Positions 38,510 to 49,277 of a stretch of DNA of 64,000 nt are shown here, piece by piece. Numbering within the stretch: position 1 is the stretch's first letter; the number at the start of each line of letters is the position of its first letter. Both the position numbers and the translations under genes were made by a program. A model generated the notes under the pieces. That model did not search any database and was not told the DNA's origin. It worked only from the letters and a program-made list of their open reading frames with translations. This DNA is from Bacteroidota bacterium. Lineage in GTDB: Bacteria; Bacteroidota; Bacteroidia; Bacteroidales; Lentimicrobiaceae. The stretch spans positions 186,001 through 250,000 of the forward strand of contig WSXU01000006.1 of the NCBI GenBank assembly GCA_009773455.1, written 5' to 3'.

Positions 38510-41311
38510 CTAATTAATAATCATCACCTTTTTGCCAACTATGCCATTGGTGCTGATTACATTAACCAAATACACCCCGGTTGCAATGTTTCCGGCATTC
38601 AGCATTTCCACACCACCATCTCCTGCTTTTGTCCTGAACAGCTGCTGTCCCTGCAAAGTGGAAATTGTTACATCGGAGCCTGATCCGGCACCTTTAATGA
38701 AAACCAGATTTCTGTAAGCATAGATACTGACCTGTTTAACTTCAGGATTATCTACCCCAACCGACCCGAATGTAAGCAGGAAACGCCCGGGTAAATCTCC
38801 TTCAACTGAGGAAAAACGGTAAACAGGACTTTCTGTCAGGTTGATGACCGTATTCAATTTAAGGTCAGTCAGGTAAATAACTGATCCAGGCAATGATTTA
38901 GCCAGCTCAATATTGAAATCATCATTTCCGTTCCCGACAAAATCAAAGGGGACAACCAGTTCATTTGATTGCAACGGAAGCGTATTGAGTGAATAGCTTC
39001 CGTCACTTGTCCTGGAATAAAACATTGGGGCAAAACCTGCTAGGAAATAGGAATCAAACTCATTGTCAAACCCCTCTGAAGCCTGCGGATTAAAGCGGAC
39101 AATACTTGACTGGGAAGAATGTCCCGTCAGATCATTGGCTTTGAGAAGGATGAAATCATCGGTTGATTTATACCAGTTTACACTGCTGTGCAACCTTGAA
39201 TCAGCCGGGATGCCCAGTAAACCATTCCCTGATGTATGCACCATAAAGCCGTTCATTGAAGGTACAATACCACCGACCTCAATAGATGTCTGATAACTCG
39301 AGGCCTGAGAATTCCAAACCTGCATAATTCCGTCGATGTTTGTTTTCGTCCAGGAACCACTATTCCAGTCAATAGCACTGGCGAAAGGGTTGCCCGTCAG
39401 ATGCCAGCCCGGGTAGGAACCTGTGGTCGTATTGGTTAAACCATTCAGGGTTAAACCGGTAACGTTCACAGCCCCTTCAAAGGTCTTTACAGCAGTATTT
39501 TCGTAAGCAACCAGATATCCTTTACCGGGAATGAAGTGAGTCATATTATTGGCCGGTACTTTCTGATTCAGCCAGTAACCATAAATCAGGCTTTCATCGA
39601 AGGCATAAAAATCATAAATAGAGGAAGAAGGCGTCCAGTCTCCTGATATTTCCTGGTTTTCTACAGGTGACGAGATCAGATGCCAGCCAGTATCACCGCT
39701 GGTGTATGCCCCGACATTGCGTTCTATGGTTGCCTGTACACCACTGTTTTCATGAATGAGTGAGCCGGTCGAACCTGCATCTGACTTAACTATTAAACCG
39801 CTTGCTCCGGCATGATTGGTCAACAAACGATTTACAGTAAGGGTTTTGCCGGGATTAATAGTTACAGAAGCCCCTGCCATAATCGTGAGGTCACTGCAGG
39901 TAACTGAACCTGTAAGTACCGGAAAGTTGGGCGCTCCTGCCGGAATTTTAATTTTTGCTCCTGATAAAGGTACAACGTTAATATTCCAGTTACCGGAAGT
40001 TGCCCAGTCAGAAGATACAGAACCTGACCAGGTCGCATCGCTGACCACCAGAACTGTATAATCTTCAGCTTGTCCGTATGAACTGATATCACAGCCATTT
40101 GAAGGTATGGCATTGAATCTGGATAATACCCTTAGCCTGAGAGCTTTGTCAAGAACGACTCCTGTTGAAGGTACAGTGAAAGACAATGTGCGCGTTCCGG
40201 TTTTATTTGAAGGGAATGATGCAACTGACTCACCCGCTTCAAAAATTCCGTTATCATTGTAATCGATGTATACCCTGGCTCCTTCATTATTGGCAGTTCC
40301 GGTTTGGACAGTTACATTATAAGTCCTATTGAGCTCCAAAGCCGTCCATTTCAGGCATGTATAATTCTGATAATAACCATCATTACTTGAGGTTGGGTAA
40401 TCGATATTACCCAATGCAAACCTGTATATTCCTATTCCATAACCATTTCCGATATTATTGTTTGACGAAAGGGTGCAACTGGTATTGACAGTTGGTGCAC
40501 TACTTGTAACAAGGATAAGATTTTCCTTAATAATCTCATCTTCCCCGTTATTGATGCTCAGTTTAACCGAATATAATCCCGGACTGTTGTATGTATGGGT
40601 GGGGTTTTGAGTCGTATAATCTGTTGTGCCGTCGTTATCCACATCCCAGGCCCAGGAATTCCAGGCGCCCAGGCTGGCGTCGGTAAATGTCACCGTCAGG
40701 CTTCCCGCACAGCTGTTACTATTGTCTGCACTAAACTCTGCCAGTGAATAGGTGGTGGTGGCATTAGCCGTGCTGCCGGATGAATAATTTCCTGATTCGT
40801 CGTACGACCAGATTTTATAATAATAAATAGAGTTCGAACTCAGGGAAGTATGATCAAATGCAGCATTCCCACCGTTGTATAATACGGTTCCTCCACCGGG
40901 GATGGTGGTTGTGTAGGTAGTCCCATCAACTGGGGTGCCAAAAGAAGGAGATGTATTGAATGCAAGCATAACATTATTATCCTGACTCAGTATCCAGCTC
41001 AGGTCAACCCTGGTATTGCTGCTTACCTCAGCAGTGAAGCCGGCAGGATTCAGCACACCGGATTCAAACAGGTCGCTCTGCCACAGTCCTCGTCCATAGG
41101 TTGCAGCCTTTAAGCGGTTTTGAGTACCTACAGGATCATAAAAAATTTCAAGTTCCCTCACATCCACGGGAGGTAATCCGTTGCTGAAAAGTATCCAGTC
41201 TGTCATGCCGGCATCCTTAAACCAGACACCGGTTTGATTTCCTATATAGAGTCCTTCATTGCTGTTTTTATCAAAAACAATACAATTGGTATACAGATCG
41301 GGCAGGCTGAA
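38510..41311 (-). CDS. C-terminal part of a BNR/PKD/GEVED T9SS protein, separated by a frameshift
   Basis: This frame continues the upstream half: it can be read from 41311 (FSLPDLYTNCIVFDKNSNE, GLYIGNQTGVWFKDAGMTD), although the first Met is at 41206. It has a PKD domain (LAEFSADNSNSCAGSLTVTF; ...WNSWAWDVDNDGTTDY), a GEVED domain (ARVYIDYNDNGIFEAGESVA, ISSYGQAEDYTVLV), a long middle region with repeated beta domains, and a C-terminal T9SS type A sorting domain (VDNPEVKQVSIYAYRNLVFI, GVYLVNVISTNGIVGKKVMI). It would be exported and attached at the cell surface, possibly as an adhesin. The missing base is described under the N-terminal half. Confidence 0.85.
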   Translation of the reverse strand, partial: FSLPDLYTNCIVFDKNSNEGLYIGNQTGVWFKDAGMTDWILFSNGLPPVDVRELEIFYDPVGTQNRLKAATYGRGLWQSDLFESGVLNPAGFTAEVSSNTRVDLSWILSQDNNVMLAFNTSPSFGTPVDGTTYTTTIPGGGTVLYNGGNAAFDHTSLSSNSIYYYKIWSYDESGNYSSGSTANATTTYSLAEFSADNSNSCAGSLTVTFTDASLGAWNSWAWDVDNDGTTDYTTQNPTHTYNSPGLYSVKLSINNGEDEIIKENLILVTSSAPTVNTSCTLSSNNNIGNGYGIGIYRFALGNIDYPTSSNDGYYQNYTCLKWTALELNRTYNVTVQTGTANNEGARVYIDYNDNGIFEAGESVASFPSNKTGTRTLSFTVPSTGVVLDKALRLRVLSRFNAIPSNGCDISSYGQAEDYTVLVVSDATWSGSVSSDWATSGNWNINVVPLSGAKIKIPAGAPNFPVLTGSVTCSDLTIMAGASVTINPGKTLTVNRLLTNHAGASGLIVKSDAGSTGSLIHENSGVQATIERNVGAYTSGDTGWHLISSPVENQEISGDWTPSSSIYDFYAFDESLIYGYWLNQKVPANNMTHFIPGKGYLVAYENTAVKTFEGAVNVTGLTLNGLTNTTTGSYPGWHLTGNPFASAIDWNSGSWTKTNIDGIMQVWNSQASSYQTSIEVGGIVPSMNGFMVHTSGNGLLGIPADSRLHSSVNWYKSTDDFILLKANDLTGHSSQSSIVRFNPQASEGFDNEFDSYFLAGFAPMFYSRTSDGSYSLNTLPLQSNELVVPFDFVGNGNDDFNIELAKSLPGSVIYLTDLKLNTVINLTESPVYRFSSVEGDLPGRFLLTFGSVGVDNPEVKQVSIYAYRNLVFIKGAGSGSDVTISTLQGQQLFRTKAGDGGVEMLNAGNIATGVYLVNVISTNGIVGKKVMIIN

Positions 41312-43383
41312 ATTGTGAAATTGGGATCCATATCTGTCCAGGTTAACCCTTTATTGACTGAAACATACACAGAATTACCGGCAGTCGCATAAACAACATC
41401 TGCATTGGTGGGATGTGTTTCCAGATAAGTAGGGGTCAATCCGTCAGGAAGGGTGCATGCGGTCCATGTCACAGATGCAGGAACGTCATTGGCATTATCA
41501 GTCCTTTTTATTGAGCCGTTCCTGACCACATAGATTACATCCGGATTGGCTTCTGATTGCTCAAGAACCTTACAATCAGCCGTTTCTCCGCTACTGATTT
41601 TAGCCCAGAGTACTGAACCTGCAGAAGCCTCCCTGACGTTGACTGTTCGCCAGACATTTTTATAACCGGCAAACATTGTATTGGGGTCTGTATTATGAAG
41701 AAAGAAAGGCAATACCCATGGACCGGCTTCATCGATGCCATTGGTACCTTCCGAACCAATGTTTGCGTAAGCTCCTTCAGGCCCGGTTACTGACCTGGAG
41801 AGATCACCATATACATAAGTATTGTAGCAATAATTTGAATTGTTATGATCAATGACACATTCTGTTCCGTCACCACCCCGCGTGGTATAAAATGTTGATC
41901 CATTGGTAGTCGCCGCTGACCCATTGTCCTGCAGCCCAATCAGGGTATAATTACTATTTGAGGTACCCTGTCCCAGTCGGTAAATCTGTGAGATAGGCAA
42001 ACCTCCGGTGATTTCAGTCCATGAAGTGCCGCCGTTGGCTGTGTAGGTAATTCCACCATCGTGTCCAAGATACAAAGCGCCATTCAGTGGATTCCACACC
42101 AATACATGATGATCAGCATGCACAGCGGTTGCCGTTCCGCTGCAGTTGCCTGACCAATTTGTACTGCTGTTCCAGGTAACACCGCCATCGGTTGACTTCC
42201 AGGTGTTAATGCCGCCTACAAAAACTGTATTGGCATTAACCGGATCAACATTGATGCAGAGGTCGTAAGTTGCCTGACTGGCTGTTCCGCTTCCGTCACA
42301 GTTATAACCCATAATATTTGGGGTGGTTGACATAGAAGTAAATGACAAACCGGCATCGGTTGAACGCAGCAAGTTTGCAAATGTTCCATCTGCTGACTTG
42401 ATCTGTACCAGGTAAACACAGGAAGGATTTGCCGGTGAAGTTCCGATCACCATGCGGGAACCTATCCCTGTTGAAGGTATTCCTGTGGTAATCTGGGTCC
42501 AGGTATCGCCTGTATTGGTCGATCTGTAAAATCGTGAAGGAGTGGTGATCCTCACAGCATAAACCACCGATGGATCCCCTGGTTTGAATTGAATATCCTT
42601 GATGTTGTGTCCGAAAGTGGAAGTCAGGCTCCAGGTTGCCCCGCCATTGGTCGTTTTGTAGATGCCGGTGCTTGTGGCAGCTATAATGATTTCAGGATCT
42701 GATGGATGCATCAGCATATCTCCGACAATAACATTTCCCATGGTATTGTTAATCTGATTCCAGGAAATCCCTCCGTCCACTGTTTTAAACACCCCGATCC
42801 CGGGAGCATCACCACCATCACGGTCACCCGTCCCGATATAGACGATGTCGGGATTAGTCGGATGAACAAGTATGGATGATACACCCAGCTTCGGCAGATT
42901 ACCTGTCAGGTTTTCCCAGGTTCCGCCTCCATTCGTGGTTTTCCATATTCCGCCTGAGGGTGCACCGATATAAATAGTGTTCACATCTGTCGGATGAAAG
43001 GCAATGGCATTAATACGCCCCATTCCTGTCGGCTGACCGGTATTGTTGATGAAATACTGCGTTGGCCCTGAAATAGACCAGTTGCCTGCCGCTGATTTCA
43101 CTCTTCCATCAGGCAGCACCCTTGATTCATTGATGTATTCCCACCGTTTGAATGCCTTATATCCATTGCCCTTGTAATCGCTCCGGCCTGACCAGTACCT
43201 GTAGAACGAACTTTGCAGATCATAAAAATTAACATCCGGTTCCTGCATCCTTTCGAGCCAGAAACCATGCCCCTGCTGTACTGATTCAGGTGCACTTTCC
43301 TGGGCAAATCCCTGGCTTATGCCTGTTGAAATTGCCAGCACTATCAGAAAATAAAATGTGTTGATAAATCTTTTCATGTTCAT
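41242..43383 (-). CDS. N-terminal part of a BNR/sortilin-repeat T9SS protein, separated by a frameshift
   Basis: Signal peptide (MNMKRFINTFYFLIVLAIS, cleavage after GFAQ), then BNR/VPS10-like repeats: PTDVNTIYIGAPSGGIWKTT, GGGTWENLTG, PTNPDIVYIGTGDRDGG, GGISWNQIN, PSDPEIIIAATSTGIYKTT, GGATWSL. This is the usual beta-propeller of large secreted Bacteroidota proteins. After MDPNF the frame reads TISACPICIPIVLF and stops at 41242, while the next frame reads FSLPDLYTNCIVFDK, as family members do. One base is missing in the coding strand near 41312-41316. Restoring it gives one ~1624-residue protein over 38510-43383. The original gene is probably intact and the split a sequencing error or recent mutation. 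Confidence 0.85.
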   Translation of the reverse strand: MNMKRFINTFYFLIVLAISTGISQGFAQESAPESVQQGHGFWLERMQEPDVNFYDLQSSFYRYWSGRSDYKGNGYKAFKRWEYINESRVLPDGRVKSAAGNWSISGPTQYFINNTGQPTGMGRINAIAFHPTDVNTIYIGAPSGGIWKTTNGGGTWENLTGNLPKLGVSSILVHPTNPDIVYIGTGDRDGGDAPGIGVFKTVDGGISWNQINNTMGNVIVGDMLMHPSDPEIIIAATSTGIYKTTNGGATWSLTSTFGHNIKDIQFKPGDPSVVYAVRITTPSRFYRSTNTGDTWTQITTGIPSTGIGSRMVIGTSPANPSCVYLVQIKSADGTFANLLRSTDAGLSFTSMSTTPNIMGYNCDGSGTASQATYDLCINVDPVNANTVFVGGINTWKSTDGGVTWNSSTNWSGNCSGTATAVHADHHVLVWNPLNGALYLGHDGGITYTANGGTSWTEITGGLPISQIYRLGQGTSNSNYTLIGLQDNGSAATTNGSTFYTTRGGDGTECVIDHNNSNYCYNTYVYGDLSRSVTGPEGAYANIGSEGTNGIDEAGPWVLPFFLHNTDPNTMFAGYKNVWRTVNVREASAGSVLWAKISSGETADCKVLEQSEANPDVIYVVRNGSIKRTDNANDVPASVTWTACTLPDGLTPTYLETHPTNADVVYATAGNSVYVSVNKGLTWTDMDPNFTISACPICIPIVLFLIKTAMKDSI

Positions 43384-45479: not shown

Positions 45480-46007
45480 TTAACGGTATCCTTCCTTTGA
45501 AGACAACCTCCTCATGATTTTCCTGCCAATATTGATAAATCCCGGCGTCGCTTCGTCAAGTTGTATTTCAATAATATCGTACAATTCTCTCCTGATTTCC
45601 GGAATGAATTCGGAAATCCTGTTCAGAATTACCATGCTATACATTTTAACTGCTACACTTTCGGATGGGGATTGTAACCAGTTGAAGCAGGCGTCGGCCA
45701 GAATGCCTAGATTTTCTTCCGGCAGCGCAGACCTCGATAACATCCGCAGTGAATGCCTTTTCAGCCCATCGCTGCTGAATCCGGGCACGCAGGATGCCAA
45801 CTCTTCTATTCTTCCGCTTATAAACTGAGGCCTGTTTTCAGCACAATAATCAGCAGCCCAGGCTGCCCGCCTGCTTAAGGGGTCTTTGTTCAAAAGTAAA
45901 ATCCTCCAGAGTTCTTCAAACATTTCCGGCCGTGCCATAACAATACTGATGATCAGGTCAGTGTTTGAACGTGATTGTTCTCTGAGTAGCAGATCTTCAA
46001 GTTCCAT
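45480..46007 (-). CDS. HEAT-like helical repeat protein
   Basis: This 175-residue all-helical protein has segments LLLREQSRSNTDLIISIVMA, MFEELWRILLLNKDPLSRRA, RHSLRMLSRSALPEENLGIL, AVKMYSMVILNRISEFIPEI and GFINIGRKIMRRL, spaced like HEAT/ARM repeats. The segment KDPLSRRAAWAADYCAENRP resembles repeats of DNA-alkylation-repeat scaffolds. No signal peptide; cytoplasmic. Function unknown; possibly a binding scaffold. Its upstream region borders the 3' end of the candidate ncRNA. Confidence 0.65.
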   Translation of the reverse strand: MELEDLLLREQSRSNTDLIISIVMARPEMFEELWRILLLNKDPLSRRAAWAADYCAENRPQFISGRIEELASCVPGFSSDGLKRHSLRMLSRSALPEENLGILADACFNWLQSPSESVAVKMYSMVILNRISEFIPEIRRELYDIIEIQLDEATPGFINIGRKIMRRLSSKEGYR

Positions 46008-46100: not shown

Positions 46101-46141
46101 AAAACAAGAAGGGAAACTATCTTTTCAGATTAGTTTCCCTT
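46101..46141 (-). terminator. intrinsic terminator of candidate ncRNA
   Basis: Perfect 11-bp stem AAGGGAAACTA/TAGTTTCCCTT with an 11-base loop (46120-46130), followed on the minus strand by CTTGTTTT. It ends the RNA described at 46102-46421. Confidence 0.85.
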
Positions 46142-46421
46142 CGTTTATCCGTTTGCCTTAGCTTGCGGTAAACCTCAGGTTATTGTTCCGGCGCTTTGTG
46201 TGTGCTCCCCCCGTGAGGATCGCGTTACTTACCAAGTTGCAGGTCTTCCCTACTTGCGTAGTGATCTTCTGAACAGGACCCGGTACTTGTACTTTTCGTT
46301 TCAGGTTAACTTTCCTTGCGGTCTGCCATCCTTCTTCTGCAAAAGCCTTTCGGCGTTGTCAACTTTTCCTTGCGGAAGTTTGATTCTGCCTCCCGGTGTT
46401 TCTCACCGTATCGTTGGCCTG
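46102..46421 (-). ncRNA. candidate structured non-coding RNA (~320 nt)
   Basis: A 553-bp gap lacks a gene but has a promoter at 46428-46459 and a terminator at 46101-46141 on the minus strand, defining a transcript of about 320 nt. The RNA can form many GNRA-capped hairpins: CGGTG-AGAAA-CACCG (46394-46408), AACTT..CC-GCAA-GG..AAGTT (46361-46380), GCC-GAAA-GGC (46345-46354), CC-GCAA-GG (46314-46321) and CTAC-GCAA-GTAG (46250-46261). These appear on this strand only. GC content is higher than the flanks. It does not carry tmRNA, RNase P, 6S, SRP or riboswitch signatures that I could recognise. It could match an existing Rfam family I cannot name. Confidence 0.6.
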
Positions 46422-46427
46422 ATGTGG

Positions 46428-46459
46428 TAAAATTACAACATTTTGACTCCGGTGTCAAG
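46428..46459 (-). promoter_or_regulatory. promoter of candidate ncRNA
   Basis: Minus-strand CTTGACA with its CTTG at 46456-46459, 20-bp spacer and TAATTTTA (46428-46435), close to TTTG-N20-TAnnTTTG. The start would be near 46421. Confidence 0.6.
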
Positions 46460-46560
46460 CATTTTATTGCACTGAATACCAACAGCTTTTGAACCTGAGT
46501 TATGAACAATTGTTAACAACTCCAATGAACCGGTTTACTGATAGAATTGAAAAATAAACC

Positions 46561-47061
46561 TTAGGTTTCCTTGTCAGGGAGGGATAAACTGAGTAACGGT
46601 TTTCCTTTTTTAAACCCTTCAATCTTACAGAATACAGACCCGTTTACTGGTTCAACGAAACAACCTTCAGGCATTTCTACCCGAATTTTATTTCCGAAGA
46701 CATCTGCCACAACCAGCAAAGAAACAAGCGAGCACTTGTCCCCATCCTTTAGCTTTTCCTGTTTTATTCCCACAAAGCTGAACCCTTCGACTGAACCTGT
46801 TTGATACTGTGGATGTTCAGGTTCAAGAAAAACACGTCCTGTACAATTGATTTTATCTACTCTGCAGCGGACAACATTTCCGGGTTGAAGCTTGTAACTG
46901 ATATAGAATTCATAGGGAACCAGATGGCGAATCCCATACGGATCCTCCATCAGCATATAATTCATATGATCTGACAGTGGAACCAGTTTTATAAAATTGA
47001 AAGGATAAGTTACACCCTCACAAAGCTTTTTCCCATCGTTGTACCATGCAGGTGCTGTCAT
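46561..47061 (-). CDS. S1-like OB-fold protein
   Basis: This 166-residue protein has a motif CRVDKINCTGRVFLEPEHPQ (about 61-80), similar to S1/OB-fold RNA-binding domains (GQ-x-V-x-C-x-VDKI-x3-G-x-FLEP), and a second beta-rich segment KCSLVSLLVVADVFGNKIRV. It starts 5 bp after the stop of the RSH gene, so the two are probably co-transcribed. RNA or ribosome binding is inferred from fold and context with (p)ppGpp synthesis. Confidence 0.65.
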   Translation of the reverse strand: MTAPAWYNDGKKLCEGVTYPFNFIKLVPLSDHMNYMLMEDPYGIRHLVPYEFYISYKLQPGNVVRCRVDKINCTGRVFLEPEHPQYQTGSVEGFSFVGIKQEKLKDGDKCSLVSLLVVADVFGNKIRVEMPEGCFVEPVNGSVFCKIEGFKKGKPLLSLSLPDKET

Positions 47062-47066
47062 TGGTA

Positions 47067-49277
47067 TTATTTTGTGGTGCTTAATCTTGAAGCCCGGATG
47101 ATTCCCTTGATTGTCAGCAGCTTCTGTATCAAAAGATCAAGATGTTTCTTGTCCCTGATGCTGACCTTAATAGTTCCGTCAAACTTTCCTCCCTTGCTTT
47201 CGAGCGAAATATTCCTGACATCCATTTTCAGATCGTTGGATATCAGATTCGTAATAGAACTTAGTATCCCGAGCTGATCAAAGCCACTGACCTTGATGGT
47301 GGCGATGAAATAGGTTCCTTCGGCAGGCTTCGACCATTGGGCTTCCATAGAACGATAGGGATACCTGTTCCGCATCCAGGCTGCATTCGGACAATTCAGA
47401 CGATGTATTTTAATTCCATCACCCACTGTAATAAATCCAAAAATATCGTCTCCCATCACAGGGTTACAGCAACGCGCCAGCGTATAACCTTCGATGGCTG
47501 AAGTTTCATTGACAATGATTACATTCTCAGATGTTTTGTTGGCGGATGGAACTTCAGGACCGATCAGCGGCCTTGGAGGTTTCGGATCTGATTTCTCCTC
47601 CTTTTCCTTCGCGCTACCCAGCACAACATCCTTGATTGCCGAAGGTTCTATCTTATTTTCAGCCAGTTGCTGAAAAAGATCAAGCGGGCCTGAAAGCTTA
47701 AAGTAAGCAATCAGTTTGTTGATCGCATCATCCTGGTTCTGAAGTTTCAGTTGCGACAGTTTTCGCTTGAAAATCTCTTTTCCGGCTTCAGCCTGTTTAA
47801 ATTCAGCTTCCTTCAGATAACGTCTGATCTTGATTTTTGCCCTTGAAGTGGCGACCCAGCCAAGCCAATCAATGTTCGGGGTTTGATTGCGTGAGGTCAT
47901 GATTTCAACCATGTCGCCATTCTTCAGCTGATGTTTCAGGGGTACAATTTTCCTGTTTACCCTGGCGCCACTGCACTTTGCACCAAGGTTCGTATGTACC
48001 TCAAAGGCGAAATCAAGCACTGTTGACCCTGTTTTCAGCTTTTTAAGATCACCATCCGGGGTGAAAACATAGATCATGTTCTCCTGTGAGCCCGGTTTAG
48101 ACCCTGATGACAGAGCTTCTTCTCCCTCTTCAGGGTTCTCAAGTATCTTTCGGATCGAATTCAGCCACTCATCGGTTTCAACAGCACCCGCCTGACCTTT
48201 ATAACGCCAGTGCGCAGCATTGCCGAGTTCGGCCTCTTCATCCATGCGAACCGTTCTGATCTGAACTTCAATCCACCGTTTTGTGGGCCCCAGCACAGTT
48301 ACATGCAACGATTCATAACCATTCGGACGGGGCACTGATATCCAGTCGCGCAGGCGTTTGGTTTCAGGGGTATAGAGATTAGTCACTGCTGAATAAGCCT
48401 TCCAGCAATCTGCTTTTTCATTTTCAGGTTCACTGCTGAGGATCACCCTGATGGCGAACAGATCATACACTTCATCAAACGAAACCTGTTGCTTGTTCAT
48501 CTTCGAATATACAGATGAAACAGACTTGGTACGGTTTTTTATCGTAAAGTGAAGTCCGAGCCTCGTCAATTCTGCCCTGACAGGCTCCAGAAATTCTTTG
48601 AAAAAATCCTTGTTATCAAGTTCCGCCTGTTGAATCCGTGATAAAATTCTGTTGTAGGATTCCGGATCGGTATAGTGCAATGATAACTCATTTAATTCTG
48701 AGTTGATTTTATACAGACCCAATCGGTGTGCAAGCGGAGCATAAAGGTTCGATGTTTCCAAAGCGACAGATGACTGTTCCTGACCCGACAGCAAAGCTAT
48801 GGTACGCATGCGGTGAAGCCTGTCTGCCAGTTTAACCAGCACGGCCCTTACATCACCCGAGAGAGATAATAAAAGGCTGATAAAATTCCCGGCATTGTCG
48901 TGAAGCCGGTCGGTTGGCAAATTATTGATACGAGAAAGGCTCTGCAGAATGGTAACTATTTCGGATCGCTGAGGGTAAGGCCCGGTAAATTCCTTTTCAA
49001 GGATATTTAAATCGACATCGTGGAGCAAAGCAGCAGCCACCGAAGATACCCCCAATCTCATTTCTGAAGCCACAATGCATGCCACATCCACCGCATGCAG
49101 GAAATAGGGCTCAGAATCAATCTTCAGGTTATTCCTGTATGCTTTAAGTAAGATGGTAAATGCATCTTTCAGGATCTCAGAATTACTCCCGGTCACAAAT
49201 GGGCGGCAAGCCGAAAGCAACTGACGGTATTTTGCTCTTACCTGCCGCAAATCATTATTTTTCTCCTTGTTTCCCAT
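47067..49277 (-). CDS. relA: RelA/SpoT homologue, synthetase-type with degenerate hydrolase site
   Basis: This 736-residue RSH protein has an HD domain (about 50-160), synthetase (about 225-370), TGS (about 400-460) and C-terminal ACT domain (about 665-735). The HD site keeps H61 and H86-D87 (LLHDVDL) and D152 (KLADRLHRMRT). The Glu-Asp that normally follows (HDVVED) is replaced by Leu-Asn, and the Asn after DRLH by Arg. Synthetase residues look intact (YDLFAIRVIL; VPRPNGYESLHVTVLGP; WIEVQIRT; RLRDWI in place of RFKD). It probably makes but does not degrade (p)ppGpp. A separate hydrolase-competent RSH would be expected elsewhere in the genome. An S1-like gene follows on the same transcript. 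Confidence 0.9.
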   Translation of the reverse strand: MGNKEKNNDLRQVRAKYRQLLSACRPFVTGSNSEILKDAFTILLKAYRNNLKIDSEPYFLHAVDVACIVASEMRLGVSSVAAALLHDVDLNILEKEFTGPYPQRSEIVTILQSLSRINNLPTDRLHDNAGNFISLLLSLSGDVRAVLVKLADRLHRMRTIALLSGQEQSSVALETSNLYAPLAHRLGLYKINSELNELSLHYTDPESYNRILSRIQQAELDNKDFFKEFLEPVRAELTRLGLHFTIKNRTKSVSSVYSKMNKQQVSFDEVYDLFAIRVILSSEPENEKADCWKAYSAVTNLYTPETKRLRDWISVPRPNGYESLHVTVLGPTKRWIEVQIRTVRMDEEAELGNAAHWRYKGQAGAVETDEWLNSIRKILENPEEGEEALSSGSKPGSQENMIYVFTPDGDLKKLKTGSTVLDFAFEVHTNLGAKCSGARVNRKIVPLKHQLKNGDMVEIMTSRNQTPNIDWLGWVATSRAKIKIRRYLKEAEFKQAEAGKEIFKRKLSQLKLQNQDDAINKLIAYFKLSGPLDLFQQLAENKIEPSAIKDVVLGSAKEKEEKSDPKPPRPLIGPEVPSANKTSENVIIVNETSAIEGYTLARCCNPVMGDDIFGFITVGDGIKIHRLNCPNAAWMRNRYPYRSMEAQWSKPAEGTYFIATIKVSGFDQLGILSSITNLISNDLKMDVRNISLESKGGKFDGTIKVSIRDKKHLDLLIQKLLTIKGIIRASRLSTTK

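Follow-up and report, generated by a model that had tools for sequence, protein, structure and literature searches.

What is encoded between two minus-strand open reading frames (ORFs) of 166 aa (46561-47061) and 175 aa (45480-46007) in a genome of the Lentimicrobiaceae? In the window, i.e., the whole 64,000-nt stretch of DNA that was analysed, a sequence-only reading had claimed at this place a structured non-coding RNA (ncRNA) with its own promoter and terminator. The claim is now backed by homology, covariation and a gene layout that is fixed in 31 families. The RNA gene (Table 1) differs from the earlier borders (46102-46421) by at most 2 nt. Upstream of it lies a RelA/SpoT gene (47067-49277), after which comes the 166-aa ORF. 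The 166-aa protein has no Pfam match, and relatives of it are present in 50 fetched loci. The 175-aa gene begins 93 nt past the RNA on the same strand.

Comparison of the homologues shows a predicted gene with its own promoter, a palindrome at -89, a terminator, pairing ends, a hairpin P9 and a variable interior rich in GNRA and UNCG tetraloops. The product would be a trans-acting, highly structured ncRNA belonging to a widespread, apparently undescribed class of the Bacteroidia, and would serve as an end-clamped scaffold acting as a ribonucleoprotein (RNP) or RNA assembly. This reading is regarded as rather probable.

Table 1 Features of the RNA gene and its control region (window coordinates)
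Feature	Position	Strand	Basis or remark
Structured ncRNA gene, 323 nt	46101..46423	minus	conserved 5' end, terminator, homologues
Upstream palindromic site TTGTTAACAATTGTTCATAAC	46499..46519	minus	core begins 89 nt before the RNA
Promoter TTGACA element	46453..46458	minus	TTG at promoter spacing from TAnnTT in 54/60 loci
Promoter TAATTTTA (TAnnTTT type)	46428..46435	minus	TAnnTTT near the RNA start in 57/60 loci
P1 5' strand TCAGG	46418..46422	minus	pairs with 46179-46175; joins the two ends of the RNA
Conserved internal-loop strand CCAACGATA	46409..46417	minus	elsewhere mostly YGAGNGATA
P2 5' strand CGGTG	46404..46408	minus	pairs with 46193-46189
P3 domain	46278..46399	minus	arms 46399-46393 and 46283-46278; encloses P4 and P5 with CCGCAAGG loops; hand alignment
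P7 hairpin CTAC-GCAA-GTAG	46232..46277	minus	base CC/GG; CT/AG in two relatives
P8 hairpin, UACG/CACG-type loop	46197..46228	minus	hand and MAFFT alignments, per-pair test (helices 11-13)
Conserved 3' core: internal-loop strand GAACAATAA and P1 3' strand CCTGA	46175..46188	minus	invariant or nearly invariant columns
P9 hairpin, UACG-type loop (UAAG in the window RNA)	46143..46173	minus	alignments, per-pair test
Intrinsic terminator	46101..46142	minus	arms 46142-46133 and 46117-46108; 10 bp and 4-bp top; T-rich tail to 46101

Borders and control region

The promoter with CTTGACA that had been proposed on the minus strand was recovered: TTGACA and TAATTTTA are separated by a spacer of 17 nt and form a promoter of the Bacteroidota type. 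Simple scans, in which an E. coli-type consensus was used for promoters, listed neither the promoter nor the terminator of the RNA gene. Transcription presumably starts at A46423, the conserved 5' end. At the opposite border, the T-rich stretch of the terminator finishes with TTGTTTT at 46101. The terminator had been described with an 11-bp stem; the terminator itself stands, while its stem is read here as 10 bp with a 4-bp top. In the 33 sequences of the 3' module, 11 of the 14 pairs of this stem have changes on both sides, and the terminator stems of the genus also change on both sides.

The control region was compared in 60 loci (59 usable copies and the window). The palindrome is found at -88 to -91 in 50 of them, allowing up to three mismatches of 14. 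Its core CAATTGTTAATAAC occurs with up to three mismatches in 55/60 loci as compared to 28/60 for the reversed control, and with up to one mismatch in 37/60 as compared to 0/60. A 22-letter version with up to three mismatches occurs at a single place in the source genome, upstream of the RNA. Three loci of the family f128 have no palindrome at the -89 position. Where two copies are present at one locus (L195 and L200), each carries its own upstream palindrome and promoter. The rigid spacing of palindrome, promoter and RNA start is unusual for a gene layout, and the site would naturally be expected to bind a dedicated regulator. Its half-sites TGTTNATAA are one letter off the DnaA box.

Two reading frames of the window overlap the RNA: an antisense frame of 76 aa (46200-46430) and a sense frame of 67 aa (46306-46509), the start of which is upstream of the promoter. 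Within the 17 RNAs of the genus, the longest complete ORFs measure 7-39 aa on the sense strand, with differing start places, and 16-72 aa on the antisense strand. Across 59 wider copies, the longest sense ORFs reach up to 140 aa, with a median of 50 aa. A protein-coding reading of the locus was set aside: since the lengths of the frames vary from one relative to another, they are probably not genes.

Homologues within and beyond the genus

By blastn, the RNA was found in 17 of 60 related genomes, namely in 17 of the 19 of its own genus (source genome included) and in none of the 41 others. The genus genomes without a blastn match, G004 and G015, are 72% and 89% complete. Immediately upstream of all 17 genus copies are TTGACA and an element of the TAnnTTT type, and the copies begin with ATCAGG..GATA, except for ACCAGG in one of them (L080).

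A covariance model of the entire RNA, trained on the genus only (R1; 323 positions, 71 pairs), matches 66 of 393 Bacteroidales genomes, 60 of them outside the genus. Those inspected outside the genus have in common the 3' core, the UACG-type hairpin and the terminator, and many also the 5' end; in the remaining ones the 5' end was located further upstream. A second model covers the 3' module (R2; 103 positions, 33 sequences), and its training set includes 22 sequences that R1 had picked up in the same Bacteroidales genomes and 5 from genus members among these genomes. At E<=0.001, R2 matches 93 of the 393 genomes and 52 of 206 genera; 27 of these 93 genomes are training members and 66 were untouched by model building, and for some matches part of the score comes from the terminator stem, which matches the opposite strand too. 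Large searches work with strict filters and few scored candidates, and a genome without an R2 match need not lack the RNA. Matches below 1e-6 occur in 33 families (labels up to f120).

The RNA is also found outside the order. In f128, another family of the Bacteroidia, R2 matches 26 of 60 genomes, each of another genus, with up to four matches per genome. In a sample of the whole phylum, 8 of 395 genomes are matched, and the clear matches are the source genome and three in f128. The other four were set aside as weak. One of them is a tRNA gene with a terminator (L157) and one is doubtful (L155). Inspected by eye, the remaining two, L154 and L156 of the family f121, show a TTGACA promoter, an ATCAAG start, CTTGA(T) near the end, a CTACGG hairpin and a terminator, and they are without the core loop; they are possible distant relatives.

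The 5' end lies outside R2 and was represented by a motif of 18 letters, CARGYGAGVGATAAAAGR. It occurs at 52 places in 49 of the 393 genomes, while the reversed control has no match. At 50 of the 52 places, an R2 match follows on the same strand, and motif start and module end are 308-647 nt apart. Each of the 49 genomes contains an R2 match as well; the two places that are not followed by one are G055:C92 and G372:C65. Members of the source genus have no exact match to the motif. Because the motif was written after the copies were known, these counts are a test of specificity and not a blind discovery.

Sixty loci with 64 copies were fetched. The class layout, i.e., a TAnnTTT promoter directly followed by the 5' end, both ends joined by P1, and the 3' core followed by P9 and the terminator, is seen in 59 of the 64 copies, from 31 families; these are the copies with a usable 5' end, and 11 of those outside the genus were among the 28 training sequences of the weight matrix for the 5' end. 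They measure 285-650 nt, with constant ends and an interior of variable size. Five copies were dropped: no convincing 5' end was seen in L210, L211 and L215, the scan assigned the start of the first L167 copy to the second one, and the first copy of L199 lies at a contig edge. L190, L191, L201, L205 and L206 were kept despite a low matrix score, as their start was readable, and L201 was moved by one base.

Some loci (L167, L195, L199 and L200) have two RNA copies close together. The f128 versions (L151-L153 and L212-L214, from the same three genomes) are about 610 nt long and contain several module copies with GGGCRCAAAGG, a TCTTCGG hairpin and GAGACGGG..ACCGCAGAARTGC. In the families f97 and f24, the RNAs of L185, L202 and L203 reach 615-627 nt and have, by eye, long similar interior stretches, for example GCCTAGCGTTCTT..CAGATTGAG..GTAAGCAGCA in L185 and L203. 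This suggests that these long forms may hold an additional conserved domain.

Genes around the RNA were compared in 32 families (31 and its own) in flanks of up to 3 kb. RelA/SpoT adjoins the RNA in 6 of the 32, within 650 nt and always on the same strand; it stands upstream in f1, f48 and f86 and downstream in f52, f94 and f116, and the flanks searched in the other 26 did not show it. The sequence-only reading had left open whether the neighbouring (p)ppGpp synthetase mattered, and this doubt was apt, as RelA/SpoT is recurrent and not universal. A second cluster of homologous neighbour genes comprises five families and is probably DnaG, judging from its member in f117; DnaG primase is found beside the RNA in f83 and f117. 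RelA/SpoT and, apparently, DnaG are the most recurrent neighbours. Others are MatE, DHODH, sulfatase and GNAT proteins and a class II aminoacyl-tRNA synthetase. Downstream genes vary by family and are often on the opposite strand. A link between the RNA and the 166-aa gene was rejected: among 50 loci with relatives of the protein, the RNA is present only at L022, a genus member, and the other 49 have no R2 match below E 0.1, many of these loci being cut short. Since the neighbours vary between families, the RNA gene probably acts in trans.

Paired ends, interior arms and choice of strand

The alignment of relatives proposed by the sequence-only reading does show covariation. P1, where the two ends of the RNA meet, has standard pairs in 294 of 295 cells (59 copies, 31 families) with compensatory changes: pair 1 is T-A, C-G or T-G, pair 4 is A-T, G-C or G-T (with one A-C), and pair 5 is G-C, G-T or A-T. 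With one sequence per family, 155/155 cells are paired, which is reached by none of 2000 shuffles. P2 is paired in 93.8% of the cells within the genus (MAFFT alignment), and one of its pairs shows the UA, CG and UG types. Beyond the genus, its strands vary in step (GGC/GCC, GATT/AATC, CACC/GGTG, GACT/AGTC), a descriptive comparison in which the register was picked freely within a few letters. The 3' module has 93.6% of its cells paired as compared to at most 60.1% when slid (33 sequences).

For the whole structure, a MAFFT alignment of 16 sequences gives 78.3% standard cells, as compared to 46.1% at best when the structure is slid along the alignment. The pairs changed on both sides number 45 as compared to 19-30, and the covariation score is 0.330 as compared to at most 0.149. 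In the same alignment, the count of further pair types was no better than in shuffles (208/500), and P3 is only 60.4% paired. The hand alignment contains 16 genus sequences, L075 being omitted as near-identical to L074. In it, a phylogeny-aware test of each pair found 1 of the 40 listed pairs at E<0.05 (the P4 base pair, E ~0) and one further significant pair in P9, outside the 40; several column pairs outside the proposed helices outranked most helix pairs. The core pairs are mostly near-invariant within the genus. One fold for the whole family is not established, because the interior arms differ between families.

Tetraloops are enriched on the RNA strand. By a strict rule (stem of at least 3 bp with at least two G-C pairs), the window RNA has three GNRA hairpins on the sense strand and none on the antisense strand, in line with the earlier remark that tetraloop hairpins occur on the minus strand only. 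In 500 dinucleotide shuffles of the RNA, the mean is 0.22 and none reaches three. At least five GNRA-type hairpins had been counted before; three of them hold by the strict rule, and five are obtained only with a laxer one, which adds CCGCAAGG with a 2-bp stem and the GAAA loop of the terminator with one G-C pair. In the 59 homologues, the sense strand carries 157 GNRA and 83 UNCG hairpins, as compared to 7 and 10 for the antisense strand and 23 and 1 for a single mononucleotide shuffle. Folding energy does not pick the strand (z of -2.8 for minus and -3.9 for plus, slightly favouring plus). The minus strand was settled because the promoter, both ends and the terminator are conserved in the homologues.

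Known RNA families, function and competing explanations

A search of the whole window against Rfam 15 (4227 families), also proposed by the sequence-only reading, gave no family at the gathering threshold. The same holds for 20 homologous loci, and 12 homologous loci have no match at E<=0.5. A 601-base search at E<=10 listed 11 matches, three of them at 0.28-0.48 and all far below gathering; they concern psbA-3'UTR, microRNA, snoRNA, GcvB and CRISPR-repeat models, lie on the terminator stem or the flanks and were rejected as chance. ARAGORN found no tRNA or tmRNA gene in the window. RNase P (RF00010; G000:C96:43033-43417) and tmRNA (RF00023; G000:C148:21736-22107) are encoded elsewhere in the source genome and have no match in the window, which agrees with the earlier statement that the locus bears no signature of either. 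The same statement on 6S and SRP RNA is upheld by the lack of a match in the window (6S models RF00013 and RF01685; SRP RNA) and not by copies elsewhere. Indeed, 6S-Flavo (RF01685) was found in none of the 19 genus genomes and in none of 14 controls, and RF00013 in one genus genome (G008) other than the source genome, where it is on contig C10 and the RNA on C20. The Rfam models of OLE, ROOL, GOLLD and the raiA motif have no match in the window or in the homologous loci tested. Bacteroidales-1 (RF01693), Flavo-1 (RF01705) and Bacteroid-trp (RF01692), which are structured Bacteroidetes motifs (PMC2864571), have no match in the Rfam 15 scan; the comparison covers those motifs of that source that have an Rfam number. 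A literature search, exclusive of subscription papers, preprints and supplementary motif lists, returned no description of the RNA, and five motif strings occurred in 0 papers. Given the lack of an Rfam match, the presence of RNase P and tmRNA elsewhere and the lack of a description in that search, the RNA is treated as a new class.

Few classes of free-standing structured RNAs measure 300-650 nt, and OLE, ROOL, GOLLD and raiA come mostly from other phyla or from phages. Like these, the RNA described here is free-standing, long and highly structured, with a function that is at most partly known; it differs from them by its own conserved core, made of P1, the YGAGNGATAAAA / AATAACAGTAA loop and P2, and by its own P9. 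Phages and prophages carry the genes for ROOL and GOLLD (PMC12286853), whereas the copies described here stand among ordinary chromosomal genes. OLE, ROOL and GOLLD form RNA-only multimers, and raiA is a monomer (PMC12286853); the main text of that article has no occurrence of 'bacteroid'. Long orphan ncRNAs as a general kind thus have precedents, and the class itself matched none of those tested and looks new. Its members come from dozens of families of the Bacteroidales and from one further lineage of the Bacteroidia. Moreover, it offers a testable target with a defined 5'/3' core, covariance models and a site expected to capture the regulator, and its short versions (about 285-330 nt) are suited to structure work.

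In the scaffold reading, the clamp of P1, loop and P2 would be the functional constant, serving as a protein-binding or tertiary platform, and the tetraloop arms would build a compact scaffold. The RNA may then function, as other large orphan RNAs do, as an RNP or RNA assembly, and its amount would be set by a protein that binds the DNA of the upstream site. The next-best mechanism is an RNA that titrates a protein in the manner of CsrB/RsmY or 6S, with the repeated ACCGCAAGG-type hairpins and the f128 modules as the sites of one protein. It seems unlikely. The window RNA does hold three CCGNAAGG hairpin motifs, and the three f128 RNAs repeat, by eye, their longer module with TCTTCGG hairpins. 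However, the CCGNAAGG motif is not generally repeated outside the genus: it is missing from 24 of the 59 RNAs, present once in 21 and two to four times in 14, so that 45 of the 59, and likewise most members outside the genus, contain at most one. Conservation is strongest in the end-pairing core and not in the repeats, and tetraloops of the GNRA and UNCG types are a common feature of large folded RNAs in general. CsrB/RsmY hairpins have GGA loops, whereas those of the RNA are capped by GNRA and UNCG, and the likeness lies only in how the repeated short hairpins of the window RNA might work. A divergent housekeeping RNA (RNase P, tmRNA, SRP or 6S) would be in a comparable range of size and folding, but it is very improbable in view of the Rfam results and of the RNase P and tmRNA genes elsewhere. 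For SRP and 6S, the lack of a match at the locus is joined by a different layout. 6S RNA is a bacterial ncRNA with paired ends, too; the RNA described here is multi-branched with tetraloop arms and measures 285-650 nt.

The gene neighbourhood bears on the other explanations. A base-pairing antisense regulator of mRNAs, perhaps of the neighbouring RelA/SpoT, would fit the six families in which this gene is close by on the same strand, three times on either side, yet RelA/SpoT was not found in flanks of up to 3 kb in 26 families, nearly all loci of the 166-aa relatives, many of them cut short, show no R2 match below E 0.1 and the interior is not conserved between families, which makes this role quite improbable. 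A component of a mobile element, such as the guide RNA of a transposon nuclease, a retron or a phage RNA, would account for the multiple copies in some genomes, which are close together in G055, G089, G172 and G283, and for the 5' motif in three IMG/VR contigs. It is nevertheless hardly credible: none of the three IMG/VR stretches has the 3' module at E<=1, although one stretch, L223, ends about 430 nt past its motif, and distant-mode blastn with the window RNA as the sole query found no match in phage or plasmid records. The flanks are ordinary genes (RelA/SpoT, DnaG, class II aminoacyl-tRNA synthetase, MatE, DHODH). A scan of 34 neighbour proteins, several of them without any match, named no family of reverse transcriptases or transposases. 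Least probable is that the RNA acts in cis on the 175-aa gene, as its leader or attenuator. This gene is near and on the same strand, but the terminator stands between it and the RNA, a separate TAnnTTTG promoter-like site is seen by eye before the downstream gene in L072 and L073, and the gene that follows differs by family and is often reversed.

A wider version of the scaffold reading is doubtful and is put forward tentatively. The RNA might be a class-wide, dose-controlled RNP or RNA assembly with a role in the Bacteroidia as central as that of OLE, 6S or tmRNA elsewhere. A dedicated regulator would switch it at the -89 palindrome, in step with the state of growth or replication. The half-sites of the palindrome are close to the DnaA box, and RelA/SpoT and, apparently, DnaG are recurrent neighbours.

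Elsewhere on the minus strand of the window (38510-43383), ORFs of 713 and 898 aa lie about 35 nt apart, and a frameshift or a stop may have divided a single gene into the two.
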